Shown: positions 13,274-60,153 of the stretch, piece by piece
Layout: the number at the start of each line of letters is the position of its first letter
How positions within the stretch are numbered: position 1 is the stretch's first letter
From: Longitalea arenae
GTDB lineage: Bacteria; Bacteroidota; Bacteroidia; Chitinophagales; Chitinophagaceae
Reading direction: 5' to 3'
Length of the DNA: 64,000 nucleotides
Assembly: GCF_016924755.1 (NCBI RefSeq)
Contig: NZ_JAFFJX010000016.1
Location: forward strand, 1-64,000
Translations under genes and position numbers: made by a program
Notes under the pieces: generated by a model
Database searches by the model: none
The model's input: the letters and a program-made list of their open reading frames with translations, nothing else
What the model was told of the DNA's origin: nothing

Positions 13274-14143
13274 ATGCCTACTCGTCGGGATTTCATCAGG
13301 CAATCATCCCTGCTTACCGCCAGTTTGTTTATCAGTAAAGAAGAATGGTTCGCTACCTCTAAAAAAATTGGTCTCCAGCTCTATACGCTCCGCAATGAAA
13401 TGGATAAAGATCCCAAAGGCACTTTAGCCAAAGTGGCCGCCCAGGGGTATAAAACCGTTGAAACCTATGGGTATGGCAACGGCAAATGGTTTGGCATGAA
13501 TGCAGCCGAATTAAGGTCAACCTTAAAAGCAAATGGCCTGTCAACCCCCAGTGGCCATACTTTTCCCGCCAGTATCTTTTTACAAAGCGGCTGGGAAGAA
13601 AAGTGGAAACCTGCGGTAACAGACGCCAAAACCGTAGGCCAGGAATATATTGTGATACCCTGGCTGGAAGAAGAATACCGCAAAGAGGCCGATAATTATA
13701 AAAAAATTGCGGCAGCCCTTAACAAAGCGGGAGCAATTGCTAAGAACTCGGGCATAAAGCTCGCCTATCATAACCACGATTTCGAATTCGATACTGTTGG
13801 GGGAAATACGGGCTTCGATATCTTCTTAAAAGAAACAGATCCGAAACTCGTGTTTTTTGAATTGGATATATATTGGGTGAGCAAAGCCGGAAAAGATCCG
13901 CTGGCCCTTTTCGCAAAACATCCCGGCCGCTTTGCCATGTGGCATGTAAAGGATATGGATAATACGCCTCAAAAGAATTTTACGGAAGTGGGCAGCGGTG
14001 TCATTGATTACAAGAAGATATTCACCTTTGCCAAACAAAGCGGTATGAAACACTTTTTTGTAGAACAGGATATGTGTCCCGGTGCGCCGCTTGACAGTAC
14101 CGCGAAAAGTATCAGCTATCTGAAAAAGAATATCATTCGATAA
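13274..14143 (+). CDS. Tat-exported sugar isomerase/epimerase (TIM barrel)
   Basis: This 289-residue AP_endonuc_2-type TIM-barrel protein is of the family that isomerises or epimerises sugars and keto-sugars using a metal. The start at 13274 gives a twin-arginine signal (PTRRDFIRQSSLLTASLF); the longer frame would put 19 unlikely residues before it. Metal-site segments are YHNHDFEF, FFELDIYWV, MWHVKDMD and FFVEQDM. A close relative with the same layout lies at 26942-27814, at the other end of the locus. It is followed by a Gfo/Idh/MocA gene 38 nt downstream, probably in one operon. The substrate is probably a keto-sugar released in the periplasm. Confidence 0.88.
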   Translation: MPTRRDFIRQSSLLTASLFISKEEWFATSKKIGLQLYTLRNEMDKDPKGTLAKVAAQGYKTVETYGYGNGKWFGMNAAELRSTLKANGLSTPSGHTFPASIFLQSGWEEKWKPAVTDAKTVGQEYIVIPWLEEEYRKEADNYKKIAAALNKAGAIAKNSGIKLAYHNHDFEFDTVGGNTGFDIFLKETDPKLVFFELDIYWVSKAGKDPLALFAKHPGRFAMWHVKDMDNTPQKNFTEVGSGVIDYKKIFTFAKQSGMKHFFVEQDMCPGAPLDSTAKSISYLKKNIIR

Positions 14144-14181
14144 ACTGTTTATCCTATTATCAATACCTAATAACATTAACT

Positions 14182-15513
14182 ATGATGCATCGCAGGCGTT
14201 TTTTACATCAGGCGGGCACTTTGCTTGCCGGGGGAACCTTATTATCAGCACTCGATAATAAAACATTTGCCATCTTTAAGAACCGCATTGCTCCTTCTGA
14301 TCAGCTGCGTTTGGGCGCCATCGGTATCAATGGCATGGGCTGGGCTAATGTAACCGCTGCCCTGAAAGTGCCAGGGGTAAACCTGGTGGCTTTGTGCGAT
14401 GTTGACAAGAACGTGCTGGATAAAAGAAAAGCCGAGTTCAGCAAACTGAATATCGATGCTACAAAGGTGAAGACCTATAGCGATTACAGGCAGCTGCTCG
14501 ACCAGAAAGATATCGACATCGTCATTGTAGGCACGCCCGACCACTGGCATGCCCTGCAGATGATCCATGCCTGCGAAGCCGGCAAAGATGTTTTTGTTGA
14601 AAAGCCGGTGGGGAACTCTATTGTGGAATGCCGGGCCATGGTTGCCGCACAGCAACGGTATAACAAGGTAGTGCAGGCAGGCCAGTGGCAGCGCAGCCAG
14701 CAACATTTTAAAGATGCCGTGGAATATGTGCAAAGCGGAAAACTGGGCATGATCAGAACCGTAAAGGTCTGGTGTTACCAGGGCTGGATGAAGCCCGCAC
14801 CGGTTGTACCTGATAGTAACCCGCCGGCTGGTGTAGATTATGCTGCCTGGCTGGGCCCCGCACCTAAAAAGCCATTTAATGCCAGCCGTTTTCATTTTAA
14901 TTTCCGGTGGTTCTGGGATTATGCCGGCGGCTTAATGACCGACTGGGGCGTGCACCTGCTCGATTATGCCCTGCTGGGCATGAATGCCGATGTGCCCAAA
15001 TCAATTGCAGCCCTGGGCGGAAAATTTGCTTATCCCGATCTGAGCCAGGAAACTCCGGATACCCTCACCACTCTTTACGAGTTTGATAAATTTAACCTCG
15101 TGTGGGATTCTGCAATGGGCATCGATAACGGCTCCTATGGCAGGAACCACGGCATCGCCTTTATCGGCAATAATGGTACATTGGTGCTGCACCGCGGAGG
15201 CTGGGAAGTACTGGAAGAACCACAAAGCACTAATAAAGCCAGCAAGTCATTTGTAAAACCTTCCGATAACGGCTTGAACAATCACTGGGTGAATTTCATT
15301 GATGTGGTGAAAACGAGAAAGATGCAAGACCTGAATTGTTCTATTCAGGCAGGCGCTCATGTGGCTACCGTTGCGCAAATGGGAAATATTTCATTCCGAA
15401 GCGGACAAAGACTGGTATGGGATAAGGCGAATGGAAAATTTACCGATGAAAAGATCAATAGTGAATACCTGATGAAGGAGTATCATAACGGATATAAATT
15501 GCCGAAGGTCTAA
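14182..15513 (+). CDS. Tat-exported Gfo/Idh/MocA oxidoreductase
   Basis: This is a 443-residue NAD(P)-fold oxidoreductase. It has a twin-arginine signal (HRRRFLHQAGTLLAGG), a Rossmann fold starting at about residue 43 (GAIGINGMGW), the family EKPVG motif, and a C-terminal alpha/beta domain with WDYAGGLMTDWGVHLLDYAL, which contributes the catalytic residues. Exported members of this family keep a tightly bound cofactor and act on sugars in the periplasm. It lies 38 nt after the TIM-barrel gene and is followed at once by a bidirectional hairpin. It is the periplasmic counterpart of the non-exported relative at 18737. Confidence 0.9.
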   Translation: MMHRRRFLHQAGTLLAGGTLLSALDNKTFAIFKNRIAPSDQLRLGAIGINGMGWANVTAALKVPGVNLVALCDVDKNVLDKRKAEFSKLNIDATKVKTYSDYRQLLDQKDIDIVIVGTPDHWHALQMIHACEAGKDVFVEKPVGNSIVECRAMVAAQQRYNKVVQAGQWQRSQQHFKDAVEYVQSGKLGMIRTVKVWCYQGWMKPAPVVPDSNPPAGVDYAAWLGPAPKKPFNASRFHFNFRWFWDYAGGLMTDWGVHLLDYALLGMNADVPKSIAALGGKFAYPDLSQETPDTLTTLYEFDKFNLVWDSAMGIDNGSYGRNHGIAFIGNNGTLVLHRGGWEVLEEPQSTNKASKSFVKPSDNGLNNHWVNFIDVVKTRKMQDLNCSIQAGAHVATVAQMGNISFRSGQRLVWDKANGKFTDEKINSEYLMKEYHNGYKLPKV

Positions 15514-15517
15514 ATAT

Positions 15518-15549
15518 AAGTATGCCACACCTGAAGGTGTGGCATACTT
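15518..15549. terminator. Bidirectional hairpin between convergent genes
   Basis: This is a perfect palindrome with 15-base arms around a 2-nt centre, 4 nt after the stop of 14182-15513 and 13 nt from the stop of the convergent DUF1080 gene. It has no long T-run. The core TGCCAC...GTGGCA matches the palindrome at 2040-2066 while the inner arms differ but stay complementary. Confidence 0.6.
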
Positions 15550-15562
15550 ACATAATTACTTC

Positions 15563-16363
15563 TTATAATTTTCTGATCTTAATATTCCGGTACCACACCG
15601 TGTTGCCATGATCCTGTAAAGCGATCCTTCCTTTTTTGTAGGTTCCAAAGCCTTTCCATTGTTTGAATTTGCTGGCTGCGATCATTTTTTGCCAGTTCTC
15701 ATCCCACATGGTGGTGCTCAGTACCCTGGTGCCATTCAAATGAAATTCAAGGGCGCCTTTATTGGAAATGATCTCTACCTGGTTCCATTCACCGGCCGGC
15801 TTTACGGTTTCCGGTGAGCTCGTAATAAGATCATACAGGTCACCTGCGCGGTGTTTAGTGATCTTAGCATCGGGATGTGCTGCATTATCCAGTACCTGCA
15901 TTTCAGGACCGGTAAAATAGGTTTCGCCAAATGAAGGTCCTTCCTGCACATAGAACATGATACCGCTATTGCCAGCGGGAGCAATTTTCCATTCCAGCTT
16001 CAGGTGAAAGCTTTCGTATTCTTCATTGGTGAGCAGGTCGCCGCCACCGGTGATCTTACCATCCTTTATATTGGTCGTATCCAGATAGAGGGTGCCATCG
16101 GCCACCTGCCAGGCTGAGCCATCGCTTTTCTTGTTAAAAACATGGAAGTTGCTTTTCGATGTGCCATCGAAGAGCAATTGCCAGCCGGCATTTTTTTCTT
16201 CATCGGTGAGGCGGTTGTTCATATCAGCGGGAGCAGCAGCCATGGTGTCTGTTTTAGTTGTATCAGAACCGGATTGTTCTATGCCGGTGTTTCCGTCCTG
16301 GCAACCGGCAATCGTTCCTGCAATTGCACCGGCAAATAACAGGCAAGCAAAAGTTGTGCGCAT
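15563..16363 (-). CDS. DUF1080 (3-keto-disaccharide hydrolase family) lipoprotein
   Basis: This 266-residue protein is a lipoprotein. The start at 16363 gives a signal peptide with lipobox TIAGC (C21); the longer frame adds 48 residues that overlap the upstream gene. The rest is one concanavalin-like beta-sandwich DUF1080 domain (about 60-265) with WQLLFDGTSKSNF, YESFHLKLEWK, GNSGIMFYVQEG and WNQVEIISNKG. Family members break the glycosidic bond of 3-keto-glycosides. It is the second of a tandem pair; the other copy (16389-17108) shares most of these motifs. It should face the periplasm or the outside. Confidence 0.9.
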   Translation of the reverse strand: MRTTFACLLFAGAIAGTIAGCQDGNTGIEQSGSDTTKTDTMAAAPADMNNRLTDEEKNAGWQLLFDGTSKSNFHVFNKKSDGSAWQVADGTLYLDTTNIKDGKITGGGDLLTNEEYESFHLKLEWKIAPAGNSGIMFYVQEGPSFGETYFTGPEMQVLDNAAHPDAKITKHRAGDLYDLITSSPETVKPAGEWNQVEIISNKGALEFHLNGTRVLSTTMWDENWQKMIAASKFKQWKGFGTYKKGRIALQDHGNTVWYRNIKIRKL

Positions 16364-16388
16364 ATAAGATGATTTTATGAAAAGAGAA

Positions 16389-17108
16389 TTATAACCGTTT
16401 GATCTGGATATTTCTGAACGAAACGCCATTGCCATGATCCTGCAGGGCGATCCTTCCTTTCTGGAACATGCCGAAACCGGCCCAGTTCTTAAACTTGCTG
16501 GCGGCAATCATGTTCTTCCAGTTATCATCCCACATGGTAGTAGAAACCACTTTGGCGCCATTCTGAAAAAGATCGAGTTTGCCTTTATTGATCAGGATCT
16601 CGATCTGGTTCCACTGGCCCCAGGGGCGAACGTTTTCAGGTGTGCTGGCAATGAGATCATACAGGTCGCCGGCACGGTGTTTATTGATCTTTGCATCCCG
16701 GTGGCCATTGTTGTCAATGATCTGCATTTCGGGACCGGTCAAATAGGATTGGCCATATTTTGGATCTTCCTGGGTCAGAAAAATAATACCGCTGTTACCC
16801 GCCGAATCAATTTTCCATTCCAGCTTCAGGTGAAAGTTTTCGTATTCTTCATTGGTAACGAGGTCGCCACCGCCCGCGCCGTTCTTCCTGGCAGCGGGAT
16901 CCAGGTATAAAATACCGTTTTGCACTTTCCAGGCCGAGCCATCAGACTTATTATTATAAACGTGCCAGTTGTCTTTTGAAGAACCATCGAACAGAACCTG
17001 CCAGCCATCATTTTTCTTTGAGGAACCTTTTGTAGCGTCGGTAGTTTTACTGGCGCTGTGACAGGCCAGTGTTAGAACCGGCAATAAAGCGATAATGAAC
17101 TTTCTCAT
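16389..17108 (-). CDS. DUF1080 (3-keto-disaccharide hydrolase family) lipoprotein
   Basis: This is a 239-residue protein from the ATG at 17108, with lipobox LTLAC (C16). A single DUF1080 domain (about 35-238) carries WQVLFDGSSKDNW, YENFHLKLEWK, GNSGIIFLTQED and WNQIEILINKG. It is 25 nt upstream of its paralogue 15563-16363 in the same direction, so the two are probably cotranscribed. The linker after the lipobox is shorter than in the paralogue. The two copies may prefer different keto-glycosides, since substitutions cluster in loops such as FLTQEDPKYG versus FYVQEGPSFG. That preference is inference. Confidence 0.9.
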   Translation of the reverse strand: MRKFIIALLPVLTLACHSASKTTDATKGSSKKNDGWQVLFDGSSKDNWHVYNNKSDGSAWKVQNGILYLDPAARKNGAGGGDLVTNEEYENFHLKLEWKIDSAGNSGIIFLTQEDPKYGQSYLTGPEMQIIDNNGHRDAKINKHRAGDLYDLIASTPENVRPWGQWNQIEILINKGKLDLFQNGAKVVSTTMWDDNWKNMIAASKFKNWAGFGMFQKGRIALQDHGNGVSFRNIQIKRL

Positions 17109-17154
17109 GAATTTATTCAAAATAAAATGTTCCCGTATCGGGAGCAATACATTA

Positions 17155-17187
17155 AAAAAGAGACCCCCGCTTTGGTGGAAGCAGGGG
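17155..17187 (-). terminator. Intrinsic terminator, leftward
   Basis: On the minus strand CCCCTGC (17187-17181) pairs with GCGGGGG (17170-17164; one G:T), followed by TCTCTTTTTT to 17155. It ends the cytochrome c transcript and separates it from the two DUF1080 genes. Confidence 0.75.
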
Positions 17188-17198
17188 CTATAGTGATG

Positions 17199-17585
17199 TT
17201 ACTGATTTTTTAACGAGAGAATGTAGCGAACCATTTCCTTAGCGCTGTCTGCACTCAGTGTTGGGTGAGGTGTCATGGGTACAGTGCCCCAGTTGCCTGA
17301 ACCTCCTTTGATGATCTTATCGGCCAGCATCGTAATATTTTCATCTGTTGCTTCATATTTCTTTGCTACTTCAGTATAAGCAGGACCAATATTTTTTTCA
17401 TTGATCTTGTGACAGGTAGTGCAATCCAGGGCGCCGATCATTTCCAGGGCCTTCTCATTGCCACTGGCTGCAGGTGCAGTGCTGGCATTATCTGCCGGTT
17501 TATCTTCCGTGCCCTTATTGGTATCTCCGGATCCGCAGGCCACCATAGCTGTACATAAAGCAGCAAAAACAACTAATTTCTTCAT
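17199..17585 (-). CDS. Lipoprotein c-type cytochrome
   Basis: This 128-residue monoheme cytochrome has a lipobox MVAC (C17), an Ala/Asp/Pro-rich tether (20-42), then a class I cytochrome domain with heme motif C55-T-T-C58-H59 and the likely sixth ligand M104 in VPMTPHP. A small membrane-anchored cytochrome in a locus with GMC dehydrogenases and a gluconate-dehydrogenase-type small subunit is the expected electron acceptor, as in flavoprotein sugar dehydrogenases. It lies between the cytoplasmic TIM-barrel gene and a terminator. Confidence 0.9.
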   Translation of the reverse strand: MKKLVVFAALCTAMVACGSGDTNKGTEDKPADNASTAPAASGNEKALEMIGALDCTTCHKINEKNIGPAYTEVAKKYEATDENITMLADKIIKGGSGNWGTVPMTPHPTLSADSAKEMVRYILSLKNQ

Positions 17586-17639
17586 CGAAACAAAAGTTTA
17601 AGTTCAGAATTGTGCAAGTTATATATTTAGCAAATTACA

Positions 17640-18695
17640 TTATTTTAATCCTAATACCGATCTGTTAAATTTTTCATCGCTGCCTGTGCCGGCGAAATCG
17701 TCAAAGGCTTTTTCGGTAACACGAATGATATGGTCTTTAATGAACACAGCTCCTTCTGCGGCGCCGTCTTCGGGATGTTTAATGCAACATTCCCATTCGA
17801 GCACAGCCCAGCCTGCATAATCGTAGGCTGCCAGTTTGCTGAAGATAGATTTAAAATCTACCTGGCCATCACCCAGTGAACGGAAACGGCCGGCCCGGTT
17901 GATCCAGCTCTGATAGCCGCCATACACGCCCTGTTTGCCGGTGGGATTGAACTCGGCATCTTTTGCATGGAACATGCGAATGCGCTCATGGTAGTTATCG
18001 ATATATTCAAGGTAATCGAGGCACTGTAATACCAAATGAGAAGGATCGTACAGCAGGCATGCGCGCGGATGGTTATTGGTGTGTTGCAGAAAGAGCTCGT
18101 AAGAGATGCCGTCATGCAGGTCTTCCCCGGGGTGAATTTCATAACAGAGGTCAACACCGCATTCGTCAAATTCATTCAGGATGGGCAGCCAGCGATTGGC
18201 CAGTTCCCTGAAACCTGTTTCAACCAATCCGGCAGGACGTTGTGGCCATGGATATACGGTAGGCCACAAGAGCGCGCCACTAAAAGTGGCATGTGCATTC
18301 AATCCCAGGTTTTGAGAGGCTTTGGCTGCATAGCGTACCTGCTGTACAGCCCATTCTGTTCTTGCTTTGGGATTATTGCGCAATTTTTCCGGTGCAAAGC
18401 CATCGAAGAGGGTATCGTAAGCAGGGTGCACAGCTACCAGCTGCCCCTGCAAATGGGTCGACAGTTCAGTGATCTCGAGTCCGCATTCCTGCACAAGACC
18501 TTTTACTTCATCTGCATAGGTCTTGCTTTCTGCTGCCTTCTGCAGATCAATACAGCGGCTGTCCCAGGTAGGTATTTGAACACCCACAAAACCCAGGCTT
18601 TTGGCCCACTGGCAAATTGATTTCAGGGAGTTGAACGGAGGCTGGTCGCCCATGAATTGGGCGAGGAATAATCCGGGTCCTTTTATCGTCTTCAT
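17640..18695 (-). CDS. Cytoplasmic sugar isomerase/epimerase (TIM barrel)
   Basis: This is a 351-residue AP_endonuc_2-type TIM barrel. The start at 18695 (MKTIKGPGLFLAQFMGD) fits the family; the longer frame adds 21 residues running back towards the neighbouring gene. No signal peptide is present, unlike the other three TIM barrels of the locus. Metal-site segments are YEIHPGEDLHDG, LLYDPSHLVLQ, RMFHAKDAEF and AVLEWEC. It follows the Gfo/Idh/MocA gene at 18737 by 41 nt, and the pair probably works on the same imported sugar derivative. Confidence 0.9.
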   Translation of the reverse strand: MKTIKGPGLFLAQFMGDQPPFNSLKSICQWAKSLGFVGVQIPTWDSRCIDLQKAAESKTYADEVKGLVQECGLEITELSTHLQGQLVAVHPAYDTLFDGFAPEKLRNNPKARTEWAVQQVRYAAKASQNLGLNAHATFSGALLWPTVYPWPQRPAGLVETGFRELANRWLPILNEFDECGVDLCYEIHPGEDLHDGISYELFLQHTNNHPRACLLYDPSHLVLQCLDYLEYIDNYHERIRMFHAKDAEFNPTGKQGVYGGYQSWINRAGRFRSLGDGQVDFKSIFSKLAAYDYAGWAVLEWECCIKHPEDGAAEGAVFIKDHIIRVTEKAFDDFAGTGSDEKFNRSVLGLK

Positions 18696-18736
18696 TAAAT
18701 GGCGCTTTGAGATGAATGATTGGGGATTTATGTGTG

Positions 18737-19903
18737 CTACACTTCGAAGAGGGTCCATTTTTCTTTGCTGGCGCTGCTCTTAACTACGTTATCGATGAAC
18801 GCCATGCCACGAACGCCTTCGTCTACCCGCGGAAAGTCGAGCATTTCTTTGCTGGGTTCTTTGCCTTCAATGTGCGCACCCAGGGTCAATGCGAAGTTGC
18901 GGTAAATATTGCCGAAAGCTTCGAGGTAACCCTCGGGGTGCCCGCCCGGCGTGCGGCAGTTATGTGTGGCGAAAGAAGACAAAACGCCTGTGTAGTTGGC
19001 GCCGGCGCGCAGGATCTGTGTCGGCTGATCGAGCCATTTAACGATAAGTGTATTGGGTTCGTGCTGTGCCCATTCGAGGCCGCCACGTTCGCCATATACG
19101 CGGATCTTCAATGCATTTTCTTCACCGGCCGCTACCTGTGAGGCCATCAATACACCGGCAGCACCATTATCGAATTTTAATAGAACGTTGCCATCATCAT
19201 CGAGGTGACGGCCTTCTACCATCGTGTTCAGATCAGCGCAGAGATGGGTGATCTTTAAACCGGTAATATATTCTGTAAGATGAGCAGCATGGGTTCCTAT
19301 ATCGCCCATACAGCCGCTTTTACCCGATTTTTTCGGATCGGTTCTCCAGGCGGCCTGGGCATTGCCTTCGCGTTCAGACAAGCGGCTTAACCAACCCTGC
19401 GGATATTCCACATATATTTTTCTGATCTTGCCAAACTCACCGCCCTGTACCATGGCGCGGGCCTGCTTAACCATCGGGTAGCCGGAATAGGTATGTGTTA
19501 AGCACAATTGCAAACCGGTCTCTTCCACTTTTTTGCTTAACTGTTTAGCTTCGTCGAGGGTGAAGGTCATGGGCTTTTCTATCACCACATGAAAGCCATG
19601 GTCAAGCGCCATCATAGCTGGTGCAAAGTGAGCGAAGTTGGGCGTTACGATGGTCACAAAATCCATCCGTTTATCGGCCGGCAACTTGCTTTCTGCCTTG
19701 ATCATATCTTCATATTTGGTATATATGCGGTCATCGGGCAGAAACAACATTTTACCAGATTCGATAGCCGTTCCGGGATTTATGCTCAAAGCACCACAGC
19801 TGAGCTCTATAAGGCCATCCATATTAGCAGCAATGCGGTGAACAGCGCCGATAAAGGCATCTTTGCCTCCACCTACCATTCCCATTCTTAATTTTCTGTT
19901 CAT
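18737..19903 (-). CDS. Cytoplasmic Gfo/Idh/MocA oxidoreductase
   Basis: This 388-residue NAD(P)-dependent sugar oxidoreductase has no signal peptide. The Rossmann fold starts at residue 6 (GMVGGGKDAFIGAVHR) with the EKP motif in VVIEKPMTFTL. The C-terminal domain includes GCMGDIGTHAAHLTEYITGL with the family's catalytic histidine. A plausible job is reduction of a 3-keto-sugar back to the parent sugar, or the reverse, after import. It is the first gene of a leftward unit and is divergent from the MFS transporter across a 175-nt region that holds an inverted repeat. Confidence 0.9.
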   Translation of the reverse strand: MNRKLRMGMVGGGKDAFIGAVHRIAANMDGLIELSCGALSINPGTAIESGKMLFLPDDRIYTKYEDMIKAESKLPADKRMDFVTIVTPNFAHFAPAMMALDHGFHVVIEKPMTFTLDEAKQLSKKVEETGLQLCLTHTYSGYPMVKQARAMVQGGEFGKIRKIYVEYPQGWLSRLSEREGNAQAAWRTDPKKSGKSGCMGDIGTHAAHLTEYITGLKITHLCADLNTMVEGRHLDDDGNVLLKFDNGAAGVLMASQVAAGEENALKIRVYGERGGLEWAQHEPNTLIVKWLDQPTQILRAGANYTGVLSSFATHNCRTPGGHPEGYLEAFGNIYRNFALTLGAHIEGKEPSKEMLDFPRVDEGVRGMAFIDNVVKSSASKEKWTLFEV

Positions 19904-20011
19904 GAAATTGAAATTAGGAAATGTGAAAAAGGATTTGTTTTAAAATAAAAAATTACATTTACATGCTTTTGTGAATCTAACGAATTCATAATTGCATTCG
20001 ATAAAGTTAGG

Positions 20012-20051
20012 TGGTTCGGTAAAAACTTTAAAAATTATCAATTACGAACCA
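20012..20051. promoter_or_regulatory. Inverted repeat in divergent promoter region
   Basis: TGGTTCG (20012-20018) and CGAACCA (20045-20051) form a 7-bp inverted repeat with a 26-nt AT-rich spacer, 27 nt before the transporter start. It could be an operator for the sugar locus. No regulator gene lies in the locus itself. Confidence 0.3.
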
Positions 20052-20078
20052 TATTTTAACCAAAAAAGATTTCTTGCC

Positions 20079-21386
20079 ATGCAACAGCCAACTATACATC
20101 GCGGCCAGCTTTTCTGGGCCAGTTGTTTAGCTCTTTTAGTAACCTCTTTATCTTTCGGCATCCGCGCCGGTATCTTAAACCAGTTAGGGGAAGAATTTAA
20201 CCTGAACGCTTCTCAATTAGGAACCATTGCTGCAACCGCTTTCTGGGGCTTTCCCCTGGCCGTGATCATCGGCGGAATGGTTGTGGATATTATCGGCATG
20301 AAAAGGCTCCTGCTGCTTGCCTGCCTGTTCCATTTGTTGGGTATCATATTAACTGTGTTTGCCAACGGTTACTGGACGCTATTTCTGTCTACCTTATTAA
20401 TAGGCATTGCTAACGGAACTGTTGAGGCTGCCTGTAATCCCCTGGTCGCAGCCATTTACCCGGATAATAAGACCACCAAGCTGAATCACTTTCATCTCTG
20501 GTTCCCCGGTGGTATTGTTATAGGAACGCTCATCGTGTTCTTATATAATAAAGCAGGCATTGGGCCAATTGCGGGTATGGAACCCTGGCAGATACAGGTG
20601 GCGGTCATGCTCATTCCAACCTTAATTTATGGGTATATGGTAAGCCGACTGAAATTCCCCGTCACCGAACGGGTGGCTGCGGGCGTATCAACCGGTGAAA
20701 TGTATAAATCATTATTGAATCCGTTGTTCATTTTCATGATCATTTGCATGTTCGGCACAGCGATCACCGAATTGTTCACCGGTCAATGGATCGATGTATT
20801 ATTGAAGAATGTTACCGATAACGCTATTTTGATCCTTACACTGGAAACCGGTGTAATGGTCATCGGCCGCGGACTGGCCGAGCCGGTGGTGCACAGATTA
20901 TCGCCGCAGGGCGTACTGCTGATCTCTGCCATGCTCTCTGCCATAGGCATTTACCTGCTGGGCCATACCACCGGAAATATGGTATTTGTGGGCGCCCTGA
21001 TCTTCGGCATGGGGGTATGTTATTTCTGGCCTACAATGCTGGGATTTGTTTCTGAGAACCTTCCCAAAACAGGCGCCGTAGGATTGAACTTAATGGGGGG
21101 CGCGGGTATGTTTGCCGTGTCTGTTTATATGATGTTCATGGGCAGCCATTATGATAAACTGCTGGGCGAGAAATTGCCCGCCGGCGCCGATCTCAAAACC
21201 TACAATAGCGCGCCGCCCGGATCAGAAATGGCCAATACCCTTAACGAGGCCAAAAAACTGGCCGGTCCTGAGATATTAGATACTACTTTGATCATACCGG
21301 CCATCCTGGTGCTTGCATTTGCAGGATTGGTATTTTACATGCGGGGCAGAAAGAAGGCGGAATTGTTAACACCCGTTAGCGCATAA
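20079..21386 (+). CDS. MFS sugar transporter
   Basis: This 435-residue inner-membrane transporter has twelve predicted helices and resembles the FucP-like sugar:proton symporters, with no extra domains. The start at 20079 (MQQPTIHRGQLFWAS) puts the first helix at residues 12-32; the longer frame adds 29 polar residues. Features include AATAFWGFPLAVIIGG and the loop IIGMKRLLL between helices 2 and 3, and a polar helix with GTAITELFTGQWIDVLL. It probably brings the periplasmic product of the oxidation locus into the cell for the two cytoplasmic enzymes encoded divergently. Confidence 0.88.
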   Translation: MQQPTIHRGQLFWASCLALLVTSLSFGIRAGILNQLGEEFNLNASQLGTIAATAFWGFPLAVIIGGMVVDIIGMKRLLLLACLFHLLGIILTVFANGYWTLFLSTLLIGIANGTVEAACNPLVAAIYPDNKTTKLNHFHLWFPGGIVIGTLIVFLYNKAGIGPIAGMEPWQIQVAVMLIPTLIYGYMVSRLKFPVTERVAAGVSTGEMYKSLLNPLFIFMIICMFGTAITELFTGQWIDVLLKNVTDNAILILTLETGVMVIGRGLAEPVVHRLSPQGVLLISAMLSAIGIYLLGHTTGNMVFVGALIFGMGVCYFWPTMLGFVSENLPKTGAVGLNLMGGAGMFAVSVYMMFMGSHYDKLLGEKLPAGADLKTYNSAPPGSEMANTLNEAKKLAGPEILDTTLIIPAILVLAFAGLVFYMRGRKKAELLTPVSA

Positions 21387-21490
21387 TAATACTATCTTAA
21401 CCTTTTGTAATATTTTAACGCTTGCGGTTTTACATTTAATCGTTTTTGCGAGAACAATTTGTAAATTTCAATCTTAACATTTAAACCAAC

Positions 21491-22381
21491 ATGGCCAATC
21501 AATCGAGAAGAGTTGCCATTAAGAACCTGGTAGCTGGCACTGCAGCGCTGGGTACGGCCAACATGCTTTCATCTTTTACCACTCCCGGGGAAACTAAATC
21601 CACTACTTTGAAAGGAAATATCAACCACTCCGTTTGTCGTTGGTGCTACGGGTCTATTGAGCTGGAAGAGTTTTGTGTTGCTGTAAAAAAAATGGGCATC
21701 AAAGCCATCGACCTCGTTGGTCCTAAAGACTGGCCTACCCTGCAGAAACATGGAATATTTTCATCCATGTGCAATGGTGCTGAAATAAACCTGGTAGATG
21801 GCTGGAATGATAAAAAGTTCCATGCGCAGCTGATAAAGAATTATACAGAAATGATACCCCTGGTAGCGAAAGCAGGTTATAAGAACCTGATCTGCTTCAG
21901 CGGCAACCGCCGGGGTATAAGCGATGAAACCGGCTGGAACAATTGTGCAGAAGGTTTGAAACAGGTCATGAGCCTGGCCGAGAAACATAACGTTGTGCTT
22001 GTCATGGAGCTGCTCAACAGCAAAGTGAACCATAAAGATTACCAGTGCGATAAAACCGCCTGGGGCGTAGAACTGGCCAAGCGCATCGGCAGCGAAAACT
22101 TTAAACTGTTATACGATATCTATCACATGCAGATAGATGAGGGGGATGTGATAAGAACCCTCAAAGACAATCACCAGTATATTGCGCATTACCATACCGG
22201 CGGTGTTCCCGGAAGAAATGAGATCGATGAAACCCAGGAGCTTTATTATCCGGCCATCATGAAAGCCATTCTGGATACCGGTTTCAAAGGATATGTGGCC
22301 CAGGAATTCATTCCCGCCCGCAAGACCAATGAAGAAAAGCTGGCATCGCTCGAAAAAGCTATTAAGATCTGTGATGTATAA
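21491..22381 (+). CDS. Tat-exported hydroxypyruvate isomerase-like TIM barrel
   Basis: This is a 296-residue AP_endonuc_2/Hyi-type protein. It has a twin-arginine signal (NQSRRVAIKNLVAGTAALG), then a barrel opening with HSVCRWCYGSIELEEF as in hydroxypyruvate isomerase homologues. Metal and active-site segments are VVLVMELLNSKVNH, LLYDIYHMQIDEGD, AHYHTGGVPGRNEID and AQEFIPAR. In this setting it probably isomerises a keto-sugar or osone rather than hydroxypyruvate. It is 53 nt upstream of the first GMC dehydrogenase, likely in one operon. Confidence 0.88.
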   Translation: MANQSRRVAIKNLVAGTAALGTANMLSSFTTPGETKSTTLKGNINHSVCRWCYGSIELEEFCVAVKKMGIKAIDLVGPKDWPTLQKHGIFSSMCNGAEINLVDGWNDKKFHAQLIKNYTEMIPLVAKAGYKNLICFSGNRRGISDETGWNNCAEGLKQVMSLAEKHNVVLVMELLNSKVNHKDYQCDKTAWGVELAKRIGSENFKLLYDIYHMQIDEGDVIRTLKDNHQYIAHYHTGGVPGRNEIDETQELYYPAIMKAILDTGFKGYVAQEFIPARKTNEEKLASLEKAIKICDV

Positions 22382-22434
22382 AAACGAATATAATTTTTCA
22401 TACGTCTTTCCATTTAATAAAAAACGATTGAACC

Positions 22435-24114
22435 ATGGCAGATAATGTTTATGATGCTATTGTAGTGGGGTCAGGTATCAGTGGTGGTTGGGCTGCAAAG
22501 GAGTTAGCCGAAAAAGGATTAAAGGTACTGTTGCTCGAACGCGGTGAAAACATCGAGCATGTAAAAGGTTATACGAACGCCAACAAGGCCCCCTGGGAAT
22601 TCCCACATCGTGGCGGTAAAACCCAGGAAATGGTAAAAGATTATCCCGTCCTGAACCGGGATTATCCATTGAACGAAATGAACCTGAATTACTGGACCAA
22701 CGAAAAGGATTGTCCGTATACCGAAACAAAACGGTTCGACTGGTTCAGAGGTTATCATGTAGGCGGCCGTTCATTGATGTGGGGGCGCCAAAGCTATCGC
22801 TTCAGCGACCTCGATTTTGAAGCCAATGCCAAGGAAAAAATTGCCGTCGACTGGCCTATCCGCTATAAAGACATCGCTCCCTGGTACGACTATGTTGAAA
22901 AATTTGCCGGTATCAGCGGTACCAAAGAAGGGCTGGCCGTTTTGCCGGATGGACAATTTCAACCCGGCATGGAGTTGAACTGCGTGGAGAAAGATGTAGC
23001 CGCCCGCCTGAAGGAACACTACAAAGGTCAGCGTCATTTGTTCATTGGCCGGGTAGCCAATATTACCCAGCCTTTACCGGGCAGAACCAATTGCCAGTAC
23101 CGCAACAAATGCTGGCTGGGTTGTCCGTTCGGCGGGTATTTCAGCACCCAATCATCTACATTGCCCGCTGCCATGGCAACCGGTAACCTCACCCTGCGTC
23201 CGTTCTCCATTGTAACAAGAGTATTGTATGATAAAGACAAGAAAAGAGCTACGGGTGTGGAAGTTATGGATGCGCAGGAAAACAAGACCTACGAGTTCAA
23301 ATCGAAAGTGGTATTCCTCTGCGCTTCGGCCTTCAACAGCACCTGGGTATTGTTCAACTCTGCCACCGATGTTTGGCCTGGCGGACTGGGCAGCAGCAGC
23401 GGCGAGTTGGGCCATAATGTGATGGACCACCACTTCCGTGTAGGCGCTGAGGGCATTGCTGAAGGATATGAAGACAAATATTATTTCGGCCGCCGCCCAA
23501 CCGGTTTTTATATTCCACGCTTCCGGAATGTAGGCAACGATAAAAGAGATTATACCCGTGGATTTGGATACCAGGGTGGCGCCAGCCGCCAGGGTTGGAA
23601 CCGCCAGATCGCGGAATTGAGCATTGGCGCAGAACTGAAGAACGCCCTCGCTGAACCAGGCCCCTGGTCGCTGGGTATGACCGCCTTTGGCGAAATTCTG
23701 CCCTACCACGAGAACAGGATCTCACTCGATAAAACGAAAAAAGATAAATGGGGTTTGCCCGTGCTGGCCATCGATTGTGAATTGAGGGAGAACGAAATGA
23801 AAATGCGGGTAGATATGAAGAATGATGCTGTGGAAATGCTGACCGCCGCCGGTTTAAAGGATGTTAAAGCCACGGAAAGCGAATATTTCATGGGTATGGG
23901 CATTCATGAAATGGGTACCGCCCGCATGGGCCGGGACCCCAAAACCTCGGTGCTGAATGCACATAACCAGGTTTGGGATGCCCCCAACGTTTATGTAACA
24001 GATGGCGCCTGCATGACTTCGGCTGCCTGCGTTAACCCCTCACTTACCTATATGGCATTGACGGCCCGCGCCGCTGACCATGCCGTAAGTGAATTGAAAA
24101 AAGGAAACCTGTAG
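22435..24114 (+). CDS. GMC flavoprotein sugar dehydrogenase, copy 1
   Basis: This is a 559-residue FAD enzyme. The Rossmann motif VVGSGISGGWAAKEL is at 10-24, GRSLMWGRQS at 111-120, and the active-site pair is H491 (HEMGTARMG) and N534 (CVNPSLTY). C220, C226 and C230 form C-X5-C-X3-C, the spacing of the [3Fe-4S] ligands in bacterial FAD-glucose dehydrogenase, so electrons probably leave FAD through an iron-sulfur cluster to the cytochrome. It has no signal peptide. Relatives are exported bound to a Tat-bearing small subunit, here encoded at 26179. The likely reaction is oxidation of a glycoside hydroxyl (C3) to a ketone. Confidence 0.92.
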   Translation: MADNVYDAIVVGSGISGGWAAKELAEKGLKVLLLERGENIEHVKGYTNANKAPWEFPHRGGKTQEMVKDYPVLNRDYPLNEMNLNYWTNEKDCPYTETKRFDWFRGYHVGGRSLMWGRQSYRFSDLDFEANAKEKIAVDWPIRYKDIAPWYDYVEKFAGISGTKEGLAVLPDGQFQPGMELNCVEKDVAARLKEHYKGQRHLFIGRVANITQPLPGRTNCQYRNKCWLGCPFGGYFSTQSSTLPAAMATGNLTLRPFSIVTRVLYDKDKKRATGVEVMDAQENKTYEFKSKVVFLCASAFNSTWVLFNSATDVWPGGLGSSSGELGHNVMDHHFRVGAEGIAEGYEDKYYFGRRPTGFYIPRFRNVGNDKRDYTRGFGYQGGASRQGWNRQIAELSIGAELKNALAEPGPWSLGMTAFGEILPYHENRISLDKTKKDKWGLPVLAIDCELRENEMKMRVDMKNDAVEMLTAAGLKDVKATESEYFMGMGIHEMGTARMGRDPKTSVLNAHNQVWDAPNVYVTDGACMTSAACVNPSLTYMALTARAADHAVSELKKGNL

Positions 24115-24118
24115 GGCC

Positions 24119-24307
24119 AATTTGCTAATGTGCTGATTAACTGATGTGCTAATGCAATTATGCACGAAGCATAACTTGTAAAAGGCTCATATATGTTGTG
24201 AAGACAGTTAAAAAAATATTTTAAATTACACGCTGCTTTACTTTATTGGAATGCGTCTTTAAACTGTATTTCATTAGCACATTAGCACATTATCAAATTA
24301 GCAAATT
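24119..24307. repeat. Inverted 8-nt repeat blocks framing a GMC intergenic gap
   Basis: AATTTGCTAATGTGCT (24119-24134) lies just after the stop of GMC copy 1. Its complement, interrupted by 8 nt, fills 24276-24307 (units ATTAGCAC, ATTAGCAC, ATTATCAA, ATTAGCAA) right up to the ATG of GMC copy 2. The middle is ordinary AT-rich sequence. Confidence 0.55.
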
Positions 24308-26023
24308 ATGCCAGGAGATTCTCTAAACGTACACCTAAACACGAAAGCAACCGCACAAAATACCTATGATGCCATTGTGATTGGATCTGGAATAAGTGGT
24401 GGCTGGGCCGCAAAGGAATTATGCGAAAAAGGTTTGAAAACATTGGTGCTGGAACGGGGTAGAAATGTAGAGCACATAAAAGACTACGCCGGAACAGAAA
24501 AGAATATCTGGGAACTGACCCACCATATGCGACTGTCTGAAGAAGACCGGAAAAACAGTCCCATCCAAAGCAAATGTTATGCTTTTGATGAAGTTTCAAA
24601 AAAGTTCTTTGTCAACGACGTTGAAAATCCATACAACCAGGTAAAGAAGTTCTACTGGATCCGCGGTTACCATGTAGGTGGCCGTTCGCTGATGTGGGGC
24701 CGTCAAAGCTACCGCTGGAGCGACCTCGATTTTGAAGCGAATGCCAGAGATGGTCATGGTGTTGACTGGCCCATCCGGTACAAAGACCTGGCGCCCTGGT
24801 ATAGTTACGTTGAAAAATTCGCGGGGATCAATGGTAATAAAGACGGTTTGCCGCAATTGCCCGATGGTGAGTTCTTACCTGCCATGGAAATGAACTGCCT
24901 CGAAAAACATGTGGCGGCCAGCCTGAAGCAAAACTATAACGACCGGGTTATGATCATGGGGCGTTCTGCGAATCACACAAAACAGGTGGGAGATCGCGGG
25001 CCCTGTCAGTACCGCAACAAATGCCATCAGGGTTGTCCCTTCGGTGGCTATTTCAGCAGTAACTCGGCTACTTTACCAGCAGCCCGGGCTACCGGCAATA
25101 TGACCTTAAGGCCGAATTCGATTGTACTTGAAGTGCTGTATGATAAAGATAAGAAGCGTGCTACGGGGGTTCGCATTCTCGATGCCGAGACGATGAAAAC
25201 GGAAGAGTATTATGCAAGGATCATTTTCCTGAATGCTTCTACCCTGGGCACTGCACAAATTTTATTACAATCTGTTTCGGATGCATTTCCGAATGGTTTG
25301 GGTAACAGCAGCCAGCAGGTAGGGCATAACCTCATGGATCACCACTATGGTGTGGGCGCCCGGGGCGAGTTTGATGGGTTTTCAGACCAATACTATTATG
25401 GTAGAAGACCGAATGGCATTTACATCCCCCGCTTCAGGAATATCAATGAGAAAACAAAACGCAGCGACTATGTGCGCGGTTTTGGTTACCAGGGCGGCGC
25501 TCAGCGCGGCCGCGTTGATCATGCAGATGGCATCGGGGTTGAACTGAAAGAAAAGCTAACCGAACCCGGTAACTGGACGATGCAGATAGCTGCCTGGGGT
25601 GAGCATTTACCATATTATGAAAACAAGGTAACCTTAAATAAAGAGAAGAAAGACAAATACGGATTGCCAACGCTCGATATCGATTGTGAATTCAAGGAAA
25701 ACGAGAAGATCATGCGAAAGGATATGATGGAGAGCGCTCAGGAAATGCTGGAAAAAGCAGGATTGAAAAATGTAAAAACATTCGATAACAATCCCCCGCC
25801 CGGATTCTGTATCCATGAAATGGGTACTGCGCGGATGGGTAAAGATCCTAAGACTTCCGTGTTGAACGGTTTTAACCAGATGCATGAAGTAAAGAATGTT
25901 TTCAATACCGATGGCGCCTGTATGGCCTCATCAGCCTGCCAGAACCCATCGTTGACCTATATGGCGCTTACGGCCCGGGCAGCGGATTATGCGGTAAATG
26001 AATTGAAGAAAGGGAACCTGTAG
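24308..26023 (+). CDS. GMC flavoprotein sugar dehydrogenase, copy 2
   Basis: This is a 571-residue paralogue of the preceding gene, with a 12-residue longer N-terminus and a different segment at 60-110. It has FAD motif VIGSGISGGWAAKEL (24-38), iron-sulfur ligands C233, C239 and C243 (C-X5-C-X3-C) and active-site H503 and N546. No signal peptide is present. All catalytic residues are intact in both copies, so substrate range rather than decay probably explains the pair. Only one small-subunit gene follows, 155 nt downstream; whether both copies use it cannot be seen. Confidence 0.92.
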   Translation: MPGDSLNVHLNTKATAQNTYDAIVIGSGISGGWAAKELCEKGLKTLVLERGRNVEHIKDYAGTEKNIWELTHHMRLSEEDRKNSPIQSKCYAFDEVSKKFFVNDVENPYNQVKKFYWIRGYHVGGRSLMWGRQSYRWSDLDFEANARDGHGVDWPIRYKDLAPWYSYVEKFAGINGNKDGLPQLPDGEFLPAMEMNCLEKHVAASLKQNYNDRVMIMGRSANHTKQVGDRGPCQYRNKCHQGCPFGGYFSSNSATLPAARATGNMTLRPNSIVLEVLYDKDKKRATGVRILDAETMKTEEYYARIIFLNASTLGTAQILLQSVSDAFPNGLGNSSQQVGHNLMDHHYGVGARGEFDGFSDQYYYGRRPNGIYIPRFRNINEKTKRSDYVRGFGYQGGAQRGRVDHADGIGVELKEKLTEPGNWTMQIAAWGEHLPYYENKVTLNKEKKDKYGLPTLDIDCEFKENEKIMRKDMMESAQEMLEKAGLKNVKTFDNNPPPGFCIHEMGTARMGKDPKTSVLNGFNQMHEVKNVFNTDGACMASSACQNPSLTYMALTARAADYAVNELKKGNL

Positions 26024-26025
26024 AA

Positions 26026-26079
26026 CAATGTGATAATGTGATAATTCAATAATGTGATAATTTGATAATGTGATAATGG
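26026..26079. repeat. Degenerate 8-nt tandem repeat (AATGTGAT)
   Basis: About six units of AATGTGAT, with variants AATTCAAT and AATTTGAT, directly after the stop of GMC copy 2. The unit differs from those at 11764, 26761 and 34558. Confidence 0.65.
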
Positions 26080-26178
26080 TTTTATACTGAACCCGACTAT
26101 TATCAGGCAGGTTAACTGATCTAAAGACTTTAAATTATTTCAAATTCTCAAATAGATTCATACTTCAAATTAATAATT

Positions 26179-26754
26179 ATGAACAGAAGAGACGCTTTAT
26201 CCCGTGTTGCTTTGTTGTTGGGGGGAACGGTAATAGGGGCTGAATTCTTTCTGAGCGGTTGCACCAACAGTGATAAAAAAATTGGCCAGTCTGTTGACTT
26301 TACGGCCGACGATATCGCTTACCTCGATGAAGTAGCGGAGACCATCATACCTGCTACAGATACCCCCGGCGCTAAAGAAGCCAAGGTAGGCGCATTCATG
26401 ACCGTTATGGTCAAGGATTGCTATAAGGAAGACGATCAAAAGGTCTTCCTCGAAGGCATGAACAAGCTGAATGAAGCAGCAAGGAAAAAATTCAATGGCA
26501 ACGGGTTTATGAAAATAACCCCTGAACAAAGAAAAGAGCTGCTGACAGCCATCGATAAAGAGCAAAAGGAATATGCGAAGAACAAAGAAAAAGATGCCGC
26601 AGCCCATTATTTCACAATGATGAAACAGTTAACGCTGTTAGGTTACTTTACATCAGAACCCGGCGCCACCAAGGCATTGCGTTATGTGCCTGTTCCGGGC
26701 CGTTTCGAAGCCTGTATTCCGTATAAAAAAGGCGATAAGGCCTGGGCTTTATAA
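26179..26754 (+). CDS. Gluconate 2-dehydrogenase subunit 3-like small subunit
   Basis: This is a 191-residue protein of the Gluconate_2-dh3 family. The N-terminus combines a twin-arginine motif (NRRDALSRVALLLGG) with a lipobox-like FLSGC (C28), so it should be exported folded by Tat and possibly lipid-anchored. The mature part has the family start FTADDIAYLDEVAETIIPATDTPGA and a helical core ending with LRYVPVPGRFEACIPY. In known enzymes this subunit carries the flavoprotein across the membrane as a complex. It is the export partner expected for the two signal-less GMC subunits upstream. Confidence 0.9.
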   Translation: MNRRDALSRVALLLGGTVIGAEFFLSGCTNSDKKIGQSVDFTADDIAYLDEVAETIIPATDTPGAKEAKVGAFMTVMVKDCYKEDDQKVFLEGMNKLNEAARKKFNGNGFMKITPEQRKELLTAIDKEQKEYAKNKEKDAAAHYFTMMKQLTLLGYFTSEPGATKALRYVPVPGRFEACIPYKKGDKAWAL

Positions 26755-26760
26755 AAGAAT

Positions 26761-26852
26761 AAGACAAAAGAGCCAAACAGTCAAAAGAGTTATAAGCGTC
26801 AAAGGAGTCAAAGAAGTCAAAAGAATTTTGACCATTTTGACTCCTTTGACTT
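26761..26852. repeat. GTCAAAR repeat array folding into a hairpin
   Basis: Units of the form AGTCAAARG run rightwards from 26761, and a reversed block follows. GTCAAAGGAGTCAAA (26798-26812) is exactly complementary to 26836-26850, with a further inner stem GTCAAAA/TTTTGAC. The same 15-mer occurs at 11801-11815. It sits between the small-subunit gene and the last TIM-barrel gene. Confidence 0.65.
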
Positions 26853-26941
26853 GTGTCACTTATGTTGATAGTTCCTGTGTCAGTTCCTGATATTCATTTC
26901 GGGGTTCTATCTTAAATGAATTAATTACAACAACCAATTTC

Positions 26942-27814
26942 ATGTACAACAGAAGAAGTTTTCTCAAGGCAACCGGAACATTGGCTTCTGGATTACTCGT
27001 TTCACGATCAGTTTTTTCCATGGATGAACCGGAGGCTAAAGGCGCTATTAAAAAATTCGGCCTGCAGTTATATTCGCTGCGCAGCGACCTGCCTAAAGAC
27101 CCCAAGGGCGTTTTGAAACAGGTAGCCGGCTTCGGTTATAAACAAATTGAAAGTTATGAGGGCAAGGATGGTATGTTCTGGGGCATGACCAACAAGGAAT
27201 TCAAAAAGTATATGGATGAGCTGGGCATGACCATCGTTTCGAGCCATTGTAATATCAATAAAGATTTTGAAACGAAAGCGGCAGAGGCTGGCGAAATAGG
27301 TATGAAATATTTGATCTGCCCGAGCCTCGGCGGCGCCAACAAATCAATTGATGATTTCAAAAAGGCCGCTGAGAAATTTAATGCCTGTGGCGAGATCTGT
27401 AAAAAGAACGGATTACGTTTCGCTTATCACAACCATGGTTACAGCTTTACCGAAATGGAAGGTCAGCTTCCGCACGATGTGCTGATGCAAAACACCGATG
27501 CCGGCCTGGTTGACTTTGAAATGGATATTTACTGGGTAGTTACAGCCGGCGCTGATCCTATCGCCTGGTTCAACAAATACCCCGGCCGGTGGAAGCTCTG
27601 CCATGTAAAAGACCGCAAAAAAGGCGCTGGTGCAAATGATCATGATGCTTCTGTTGACCTGGGCACAGGCAGCATTGATTTTAAAAAGATCTTGAAAGCG
27701 GGTTCTGCCAAAGGACTGGAATATTATATCGTTGAGCAGGAACGTTACGATAACAGCACACCGCTGAAAAGCGCCGAAGCAGACGCGAAGTATATGAAGA
27801 AATTTAAGATGTAG
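26942..27814 (+). CDS. Tat-exported sugar isomerase/epimerase (TIM barrel)
   Basis: This is a 290-residue AP_endonuc_2 protein. It has a twin-arginine signal (YNRRSFLKATGTLASG), then KFGLQLYSLRSDLPKDPKGVL, which closely matches GLQLYTLRNEMDKDPKGTL of the gene at 13274. Metal-site segments are FAYHNHGYSF, VDFEMDIYWVV, LCHVKDRKK and YYIVEQERY. It closes the sugar-oxidation locus and is followed by a good terminator. The paralogue pair at both ends of the locus suggests duplication inside the pathway. Confidence 0.88.
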   Translation: MYNRRSFLKATGTLASGLLVSRSVFSMDEPEAKGAIKKFGLQLYSLRSDLPKDPKGVLKQVAGFGYKQIESYEGKDGMFWGMTNKEFKKYMDELGMTIVSSHCNINKDFETKAAEAGEIGMKYLICPSLGGANKSIDDFKKAAEKFNACGEICKKNGLRFAYHNHGYSFTEMEGQLPHDVLMQNTDAGLVDFEMDIYWVVTAGADPIAWFNKYPGRWKLCHVKDRKKGAGANDHDASVDLGTGSIDFKKILKAGSAKGLEYYIVEQERYDNSTPLKSAEADAKYMKKFKM

Positions 27815-60149: not shown

Positions 60150-60153
60150 TCCA

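Follow-up and report, generated by a model that had tools for sequence, protein, structure and literature searches.

A predicted 3-keto-glycoside catabolic locus divided by the inner membrane in Longitalea arenae

By what route could a bacterium break down glycosides from a locus that holds neither a SusC/SusD pair nor a glycoside hydrolase? The question is raised by 13 open reading frames (ORFs) of Longitalea arenae (Chitinophagaceae; assembly GCF_016924755.1), which lie at positions 13274-27814 of the window analysed here, a stretch of 64,000 nucleotides (contig NZ_JAFFJX010000016.1, positions 1 to 64,000) that is part of contig 6 in a genome of 7.28 Mb; coordinates are those of the window unless another contig is named. 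A first-pass annotation had assigned these ORFs to an oxidation-first 3-keto-glycoside pathway with periplasmic and cytoplasmic halves. All of the protein families it named were recovered by Pfam above cut-off, in ORFs at the positions it gave, namely AP_endonuc_2 in four proteins, GFO_IDH_MocA and 3keto-disac_hyd (PF06439, the same family as DUF1080) in two each, both the N- and C-terminal GMC domains in two, and Cytochrom_C, MFS_1 and Gluconate_2-dh3 in one each. Its remark on the absence of SusC/SusD and of glycoside hydrolase families likewise held for the 13 proteins scanned against Pfam, and a Sus-type polysaccharide utilisation locus was rejected for want of a SusC/SusD pair among them; Rfam gave no match in the window at gathering score. 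The genes form three groups, TIM1-GFO1 on the plus strand, GFO2-HYD-CYT-DUF1080b-DUF1080a on the minus strand and MFS-TIM3-GMC1-GMC2-SS-TIM4 on the plus strand, with a gap of 175 bases between the divergent GFO2 and MFS.

Our answer, which we hold with considerable confidence, is that the locus serves a non-hydrolytic 3-keto-glycoside catabolic pathway split over the inner membrane. The support computed here consists of gene content, homology, conserved residues, signal motifs, synteny and co-occurrence, from which we infer the reactions in the organism, the substrate, the transported molecule and the electron flow, as well as the roles of GFO1 and TIM3. In the periplasm, the dehydrogenases GMC1 and GMC2, both carried and anchored by the small subunit SS, would oxidise a glycoside at C3 to a 3-keto-glycoside, and electrons would reach the lipoprotein cytochrome CYT by way of an iron-sulphur centre and continue from there to respiration. 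Two exported triosephosphate isomerase (TIM) barrels, TIM1 and TIM4, would then remove the aglycone by beta-elimination to leave 2-hydroxy-3-keto-glucal, which the lipoproteins DUF1080a and DUF1080b would hydrate to 3-keto-glucose, or else these would both eliminate and hydrate substrates that the lyases refuse. The transporter MFS might import the keto-sugar, be it the glycal, 3-keto-glucose or both, after which the cytoplasmic TIM barrel HYD would hydrate leftover glycal and the oxidoreductase GFO2 would use NAD(P)H to reduce 3-keto-glucose, yielding glucose. A nicotinamide-bound alternative for periplasmic redox conversion is possibly provided by GFO1, and TIM3 may be an isomerase or epimerase whose substrate is an exported 3-keto sugar. 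The core of the first-pass proposal is thereby retained, as most of the parts have relatives of known function, and several of the individual roles are corrected below.

Sorting of the enzymes by export signals

The division into two compartments had first been read from the signal peptides, which were said to be missing from HYD and GFO2, and this sorting is borne out and conserved in related species. Twin-arginine (Tat) N-termini are present in TIM1 (13274), GFO1 (14182), TIM3 (21491), SS (26179) and TIM4 (26942), and lipobox-like cysteines in DUF1080a (IAGC), DUF1080b and CYT (MVAC). To these we add a lipobox in SS (FLSGC) besides its twin-arginine signal, so that SS reads as a Tat-exported lipoprotein. 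Neither a Tat signal nor a lipobox is found in HYD, GFO2, GMC1 and GMC2. The TIM1 of the window fails a crude hydropathy rule, yet its TRRDF motif is clear.

The same pattern is seen among homologs, where Tat-like N-termini occur in 71 of 71 SS, 54 of 62 TIM3, 20 of 21 TIM4 and 23 of 28 TIM1 sequences, as against 1 of 53 for HYD, none of 53 for GFO2 and none of 93 for GMC1. The background among ORFs of these loci without a match to any window protein is 23/582, and the sorting is not a product of chance. These counts exclude hits below 40% identity or 60% coverage, a filter that only one GFO1 homolog passed, and they lean towards agreement, as the start codon was chosen to lie nearest the window protein's length. 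Lipobox counts (SS 50/71, CYT 30/44, DUF1080a 15/26, DUF1080b 7/11) are only indicative, because the test for lipoboxes is positive for 14 of 20 MFS proteins as well. The ten N-termini used in the signal check are nearly identical, with their signals kept, in all eight species of the genus whose loci were fetched.

Predicted elimination and hydration

The first-pass annotation had described four TIM-barrel isomerases or epimerases, a label that now seems apt for TIM3 only, as TIM1 and TIM4 are relatives of lyases and HYD of a hydratase. TIM1 (13274..14143, plus strand) and TIM4 (26942..27814, plus strand), two Tat-exported barrels that share 34.7% identity, were compared with solved structures by phmmer, in which TIM1 matched 8tct (1.4e-35) and 8bvk (1.3e-24), TIM4 matched 8tcd (4.6e-37), and both matched 8tct, 8tcd and 8tcs. 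In a Foldseek search with the AlphaFold model of TIM1 (pLDDT 96.8), the four best rows are titled 3-keto-beta-glucopyranoside-1,2-lyase, with 8tcd, 8tct and 8tcr first, and AtOGE of Agrobacterium tumefaciens (8bvk) stands at rank 8. We take 8tcd, 8tct, 8tda, 8v31 and 8tdf to be enzymes of the BT2156-2160 type pathway.

The metal and catalytic residues reported for AtOGE are Glu39, His66, His132, His134, Glu161, Asp163, His189 and Glu233 (PMC10628242). They match positions 37, 69, 140, 142, 170, 172, 198 and 238 of the modelled stretch of TIM1, a mapping that rests on spacing and not on a structural alignment. Across 51 TIM1/TIM4-type sequences (the two window proteins and 49 of the 61 qualifying locus sequences), the counterparts of seven of these residues are the same throughout, and that of Glu161 is glutamate in 47 and glutamine in 4; TIM4 has all eight. 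TIM1 and TIM4 are thus, as far as sequence and modelled fold go, relatives of 3-keto-glucoside 1,2-lyases that hold the beta-eliminase residues, and lyase activity is predicted for both.

The firmest enzyme role in the locus is that of HYD (17640..18695, minus strand, start at ATG 18695), which reads as nearly orthologous to the 2-hydroxy-3-keto-glucal hydratase of Agrobacterium. The phmmer match to this hydratase (8ro4, E 1.7e-174), an entry titled AtHYD of A. tumefaciens in the structure search, spans residues 2-351 of HYD (352 residues), and HYD is 73% identical to a homolog in Sinorhizobium meliloti.

Hydration is also the activity towards which the two DUF1080 lipoproteins point. DUF1080a (15563..16363, minus strand; PF06439, 160 bits) and DUF1080b (16389..17108, minus strand; 165 bits) are 67% identical and were aligned with 37 of 38 locus sequences. 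In phmmer, DUF1080b matches 8v31 (2.4e-38) and 8tda (1e-37) behind two entries named putative glycosyl hydrolase; with its model (pLDDT 95.2), Foldseek places 8rr2, 8tda and 8v31 within the first five, the top match being 4hxc, an unassigned putative glycosyl hydrolase. The structures with an assigned activity are 3-keto-2-hydroxy-glucal-hydratases (8tda, 8v31) and 3-keto-glycoside eliminase/hydratases (8rr2, 9fbe). The earlier statement that DUF1080 proteins cleave 3-keto-glycosides must hence be narrowed to an elimination that they might perform in addition.

A different division of labour has been published for the Caulobacter cluster, based on fitness data in which the DUF1080 gene shows a strong phenotype on lactose (PMC9007349). 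There, DUF1080 would hydrolyse a periplasmic 3-keto-disaccharide, and the TIM barrels would act later as epimerases of 3-keto-monosaccharides, a role that the isomerase-like TIM3 would suit. However, TIM1, TIM4 and HYD resemble lyases and a hydratase more closely than epimerases, and several DUF1080 structures are titled hydratase or eliminase/hydratase; we consider this hydrolytic model unlikely for the present locus. In the non-hydrolytic pathway that we prefer, it is more likely that the bond is cut by the TIM-barrel lyases than by DUF1080, and that the DUF1080 lipoproteins hydrate and perhaps also eliminate.

Given the closeness of HYD to AtHYD and the matches of DUF1080b to hydratase-titled structures, the hydration step is probably encoded twice in unrelated folds, namely by a cytoplasmic TIM barrel and an exported lipoprotein with a beta-fold. 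Co-occurrence was assessed in 80 loci, the best 80 of 597 confirmed relatives, which were picked by GMC1 (GMC1 is present in all 80 by construction). Full-length stretches make up 54 of the 80, and some of the others are cut by contig ends; a gene was counted upon any tblastn match at E 1e-8. Under a stricter filter, HYD is left in 53 loci and DUF1080 in 36, and 33 loci hold the two together. In the extracts of the literature that we searched, we found no published statement of such a two-sided hydration by DUF1080 outside and HYD inside.

Proposed oxidation, electron transfer and reduction

Periplasmic glycoside 3-dehydrogenases of the LacABC type, which oxidise C3, combine a large subunit of the GMC FAD fold, a Gluconate_2-dh3 small subunit with a Tat signal and a c-type cytochrome. 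The locus encodes a large subunit of this fold, a small subunit with a Tat signal and, nearby, a c-type cytochrome, and GMC1 and GMC2 with SS are proposed to form such a C3-oxidising enzyme. GMC1 (22435..24114, plus strand) and GMC2 (24308..26023, plus strand) are 60% identical, both hold PF00732 and PF05199 above cut-off, and they match the large subunits of fructose dehydrogenase and FAD-glucose dehydrogenase (by phmmer for GMC1). In an alignment of GMC2 with fructose dehydrogenase, three cysteines (CX5CX3C) are aligned, the same motif is present in GMC1, and CX5CX3CP is found in 104 of 112 GMC homologs; we take these cysteines to be the ligands of a 3Fe-4S centre. SS (26179..26754, plus strand) matches PF13618 at 144 bits and has no convincing match among solved structures, the best being to an S-layer protein (E 0.033). 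CYT (17199..17585, minus strand; PF00034) is a lipoprotein monohaem cytochrome c with one CXXCH in all 44 homologs, and its proposed role as electron acceptor would fit the report that in Rhizobium radiobacter a monohaem cytochrome c takes electrons from glucoside 3-dehydrogenase (PMC9915066).

Further GMC proteins were encountered. A third one, 72% identical to GMC1, is encoded on contig 3 of the same genome (138692-140374), and similar proteins (71-73% identical to GMC1) occur in seven of nine other species of the genus. The genome has two PF13618 small subunits, on contigs 6 and 22 and none on contig 3, and the third GMC may borrow SS from the window locus. On contig 22 (873000-888000) lies a divergent pair of GMC and small subunit, 32% and 26% identical to GMC2 and SS respectively, and other pathway genes are not evident among the ORFs of that stretch. 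In four loci of some Chitinophagaceae (L026, L044, L046 and L075), a further divergent GMC, which shares about 32% identity with GMC2, lies on the minus strand between GFO2 and MFS; of these copies, the one in L026 was scanned against Pfam.

Two Gfo/Idh/MocA enzymes would account for the nicotinamide-dependent steps. GFO2 (18737..19903, minus strand), which lacks a signal, matches 3v5n by phmmer (6.8e-106) and shares 45% identity with the Gfo enzyme that adjoins the HYD homolog in S. meliloti; HYD and GFO2 lie on the same strand, at most 600 bp apart, in 50 of 51 loci that hold both (at least 40% identity). It is proposed as a 3-keto-glucose reductase by analogy with the A. tumefaciens operon, which holds a Gfo reductase and for which the evidence of hydration and reduction is itself called preliminary (PMC10628242). 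GFO1 (14182..15513, plus strand; PF19051, PF01408) matches 8tdf (1.5e-32) and is possibly a periplasmic glycoside 3-dehydrogenase or reductase. Membership of GFO1 in the BT2158 family (NCBIfam BT_2158_fam) was rejected on the curated cut-off, as detailed below. A different Gfo protein is present in 31 of the 80 loci, with the match starting at most 100 bases after GMC1 in the six for which positions were obtained; its representative in L004 scores 488 bits against the same model, which is also below cut-off.

Conservation, transport and kinship with described clusters

Several patterns of conservation argue for a single functional unit. All 13 genes stand in the same order in the eight fetched species of the genus (nine in the search), MFS being only 49-54% identical in two of them. 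In the 80 loci, SS is found in 74, GFO2 in 57, HYD in 55 and CYT in 44. HYD (E 1e-60) and GMC1 (E 1e-100) are present in exactly the same 20 of 39 relatives, and among 198 genomes of the class HYD occurs in 17, GMC1 in 18 and both in 16 (Fisher 1.8e-20, not corrected for shared ancestry), the two genes lying within 20 kb of each other in 12 of the 16. The hosts named include Chitinophagaceae, Mucilaginibacter, Pontibacter, Hymenobacter, Indibacter, Pseudoxanthomonas, Lysobacter, Paraglaciecola and Halomonas, which we take to be many Bacteroidota and some Gammaproteobacteria, and on a plasmid of Hymenobacter volaticus the same kinds of genes are present under generic annotations.

A number of observations weigh against the pathway that we propose. 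HYD has no match in 25 of the 80 loci, some of which are contig-cut, and in the class genomes it occurs once without GMC1, and GMC1 twice without HYD. Of the 16 genomes that hold both, four do not have them within 20 kb, with 334 kb between them in one and different contigs in three. Both GMC proteins fall below the cut-off of every NCBIfam model listed, none of which is a glycoside 3-dehydrogenase, and GFO1 scores 174.6 bits over residues 4-278 of 443 for BT_2158_fam, the cut-off of which is 750. The genome contains ten PF06439 matches, eight of them outside the locus, and the DUF1080 function may thus be redundant or lie elsewhere. No lactose phenotype was seen for any of ten DUF1080 genes in Pedobacter GW460 (PMC9007349), and deletion of BT2157 or BT2158 left growth on raffinose-family sugars unaffected (PMC11501099). 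Lastly, on pSymB of S. meliloti (L122, 8001-12146) a HYD-Gfo pair stands away from any annotated GMC in the stretch, beside a glycoside hydrolase family 1 (GH1) beta-glucosidase and a xylose isomerase.

Two alternative readings draw on these observations. The genes separated in four genomes, together with the spread of three groups over both strands, might suggest that the 13 genes are unrelated neighbours, but the order kept in all eight species of the genus, the recurrence of the same parts, rearranged yet together, in other families and on the Hymenobacter plasmid, and the matching phylogenetic profiles of GMC1 and HYD all speak against it, and this disfavoured reading is in our view barely credible. 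The S. meliloti pair without an annotated GMC neighbour and beside a beta-glucosidase would suit a second reading, in which the intact 3-keto-glycoside is imported and cleaved in the cytoplasm and the exported barrels serve other substrates; LgdB2 of Bacillus smithii, a hydratase with weak eliminase activity (PMC7676230), is in keeping with it as well. However, the locus has no lyase without a signal, and both lyase-type barrels carry Tat signals in the window, in most homologs and in all eight genus loci, so that we find intact import very improbable. In the membrane-split pathway that we favour, the HYD-GFO2 pair looks like a portable cytoplasmic unit, because the S. meliloti pair stands without an annotated GMC.

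MFS (20079..21386, plus strand; PF07690, 75.8 bits) is proposed to import a keto-sugar intermediate. A transporter of its type is present in 20 of the 80 stretches, a relative of NupG-type nucleoside symporters in 43, both in 5 and either in 58, and one or the other lies somewhere in the fetched stretch in 50 of 55 HYD loci. As PF07690 also matches the NupG type, both belong to the major facilitator superfamily, and the finding of either carrier family next to one and the same set of enzymes would be in line with a common cargo. TIM3 (21491..22381, plus strand) is a Tat-exported barrel whose nearest group is hydroxypyruvate isomerase, of which it is not filed as a member (NCBIfam OH-pyruv-isom, TIGR03234, 92 bits, cut-off 353), and its role is putative. 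Our own hidden Markov model of TIM3 gave 62.7 bits for Escherichia coli Hyi, 43.6 for YgbM and 30.5 for YcjR, and a 3-keto-glucoside 4-epimerase role like that of YcjR was not adopted in view of this ranking. Residues E173, D209, H235 and E272, presumably metal-binding, are invariant in 22 of 22 aligned sequences (the window protein and 21 of 62 locus sequences). TIM3 is present in 65 of the 80 loci, in 44 of which it lies on the same strand as GMC1 and at most 600 bp away. We tentatively suggest, as a joint reading that we hold to be rather doubtful, that the glycal 2-hydroxy-3-keto-glucal itself crosses the inner membrane, rather than the sugar or the whole keto-glycoside, and that TIM3 epimerises or isomerises 3-keto sugars in the periplasm, a role so far unrecognised. 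The cell would then keep both an outer hydratase, DUF1080, and an inner one, HYD, because the glycal partitions between them through the MFS or NupG-type carrier.

Directly upstream of TIM1 (11897-13118) lie a sigma-70-family, extracytoplasmic function (ECF)-like factor and a 222-residue protein of no Pfam family, a pair that is kept in seven of the eight fetched genus loci and in Pseudoflavitalea and that possibly regulates the cluster. Two adjacent proteins at 9876-11367, without a Pfam match at E 1e-5, recall transposases associated with repetitive extragenic palindromes. At 58869-62088, an AcrB-family efflux transporter occupies two adjacent frames (profile positions 2-419 and 420-1020), which may reflect a natural split, an error in the sequencing or a disrupted gene.

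The notion that the locus is something new was not upheld, as the gene set was described in 2022 for the use of lactose in Caulobacter, and also in Indibacter, Algoriphagus and Halomonas (PMC9007349); the locus is therefore a well-conserved example of a cluster type already described. In Caulobacter, compared here by published description and not by alignment, LacABC, a DUF1080 gene, an adjacent transporter, two "epimerases" and a reductase play a part in growth on lactose (PMC9007349). The locus of Indibacter alkaliphilus LW1 has DUF1080, CYT, HYD, GFO2, TIM3, GMC1, SS and TIM4 in an arrangement like that of the window. The window differs from the Caulobacter-type cluster in its two GMC proteins per small subunit, its pair of lyase-type barrels with Tat signals and its Gfo/Idh/MocA enzyme with a Tat signal. 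The A. tumefaciens operon of GlycDH, AtOGE, AtHYD and a Gfo reductase (PMC10628242) covers the same four chemical steps, with HYD near AtHYD and with GFO2 and the reductase sharing the Gfo/Idh/MocA superfamily by family membership rather than alignment, whereas the window has exported lyases and, in DUF1080, another hydratase family that is unrelated to the first. In Bacteroides and Alistipes, TIM1 and TIM4 find their likeness in the lyases AL1 and BT1, the DUF1080 proteins in the hydratases BT2 and AL2, and GFO1, distantly, in the dehydrogenases 8tdf and 8tdh; to these the window adds oxidation by GMC and cytochrome and the cytoplasmic HYD-GFO2 pair. The levoglucosan pathway of B. smithii (LgdA/B1/B2/C) likewise runs through oxidation, elimination, hydration and reduction and includes two "sugar phosphate isomerases" as well as oxidoreductases of the Gfo type, but it is NAD-dependent and accompanied by ATP-binding cassette (ABC) transporter genes, and no GMC, cytochrome or DUF1080 is described in the extracts of that account (PMC7676230).

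To this cluster type, the present analysis adds lyase and hydratase roles for the supposed "epimerases", the pair of hydratases in two compartments and the singling out of TIM3, and it offers sharper roles for proteins that are annotated in a public record as "sugar phosphate isomerase/epimerase", "TIM barrel protein" or "DUF1080 domain-containing protein". Two gaps in the pathway as published are also brought out, namely the transported molecule and the role of the isomerase-like barrel that is exported and conserved. In the Caulobacter account, the fate of 3-ketogalactose is given as unknown (PMC9007349), and if the tentative reading of TIM3 were true, this barrel would channel 3-keto sugars of the galacto type into the gluco route and hence settle that fate.

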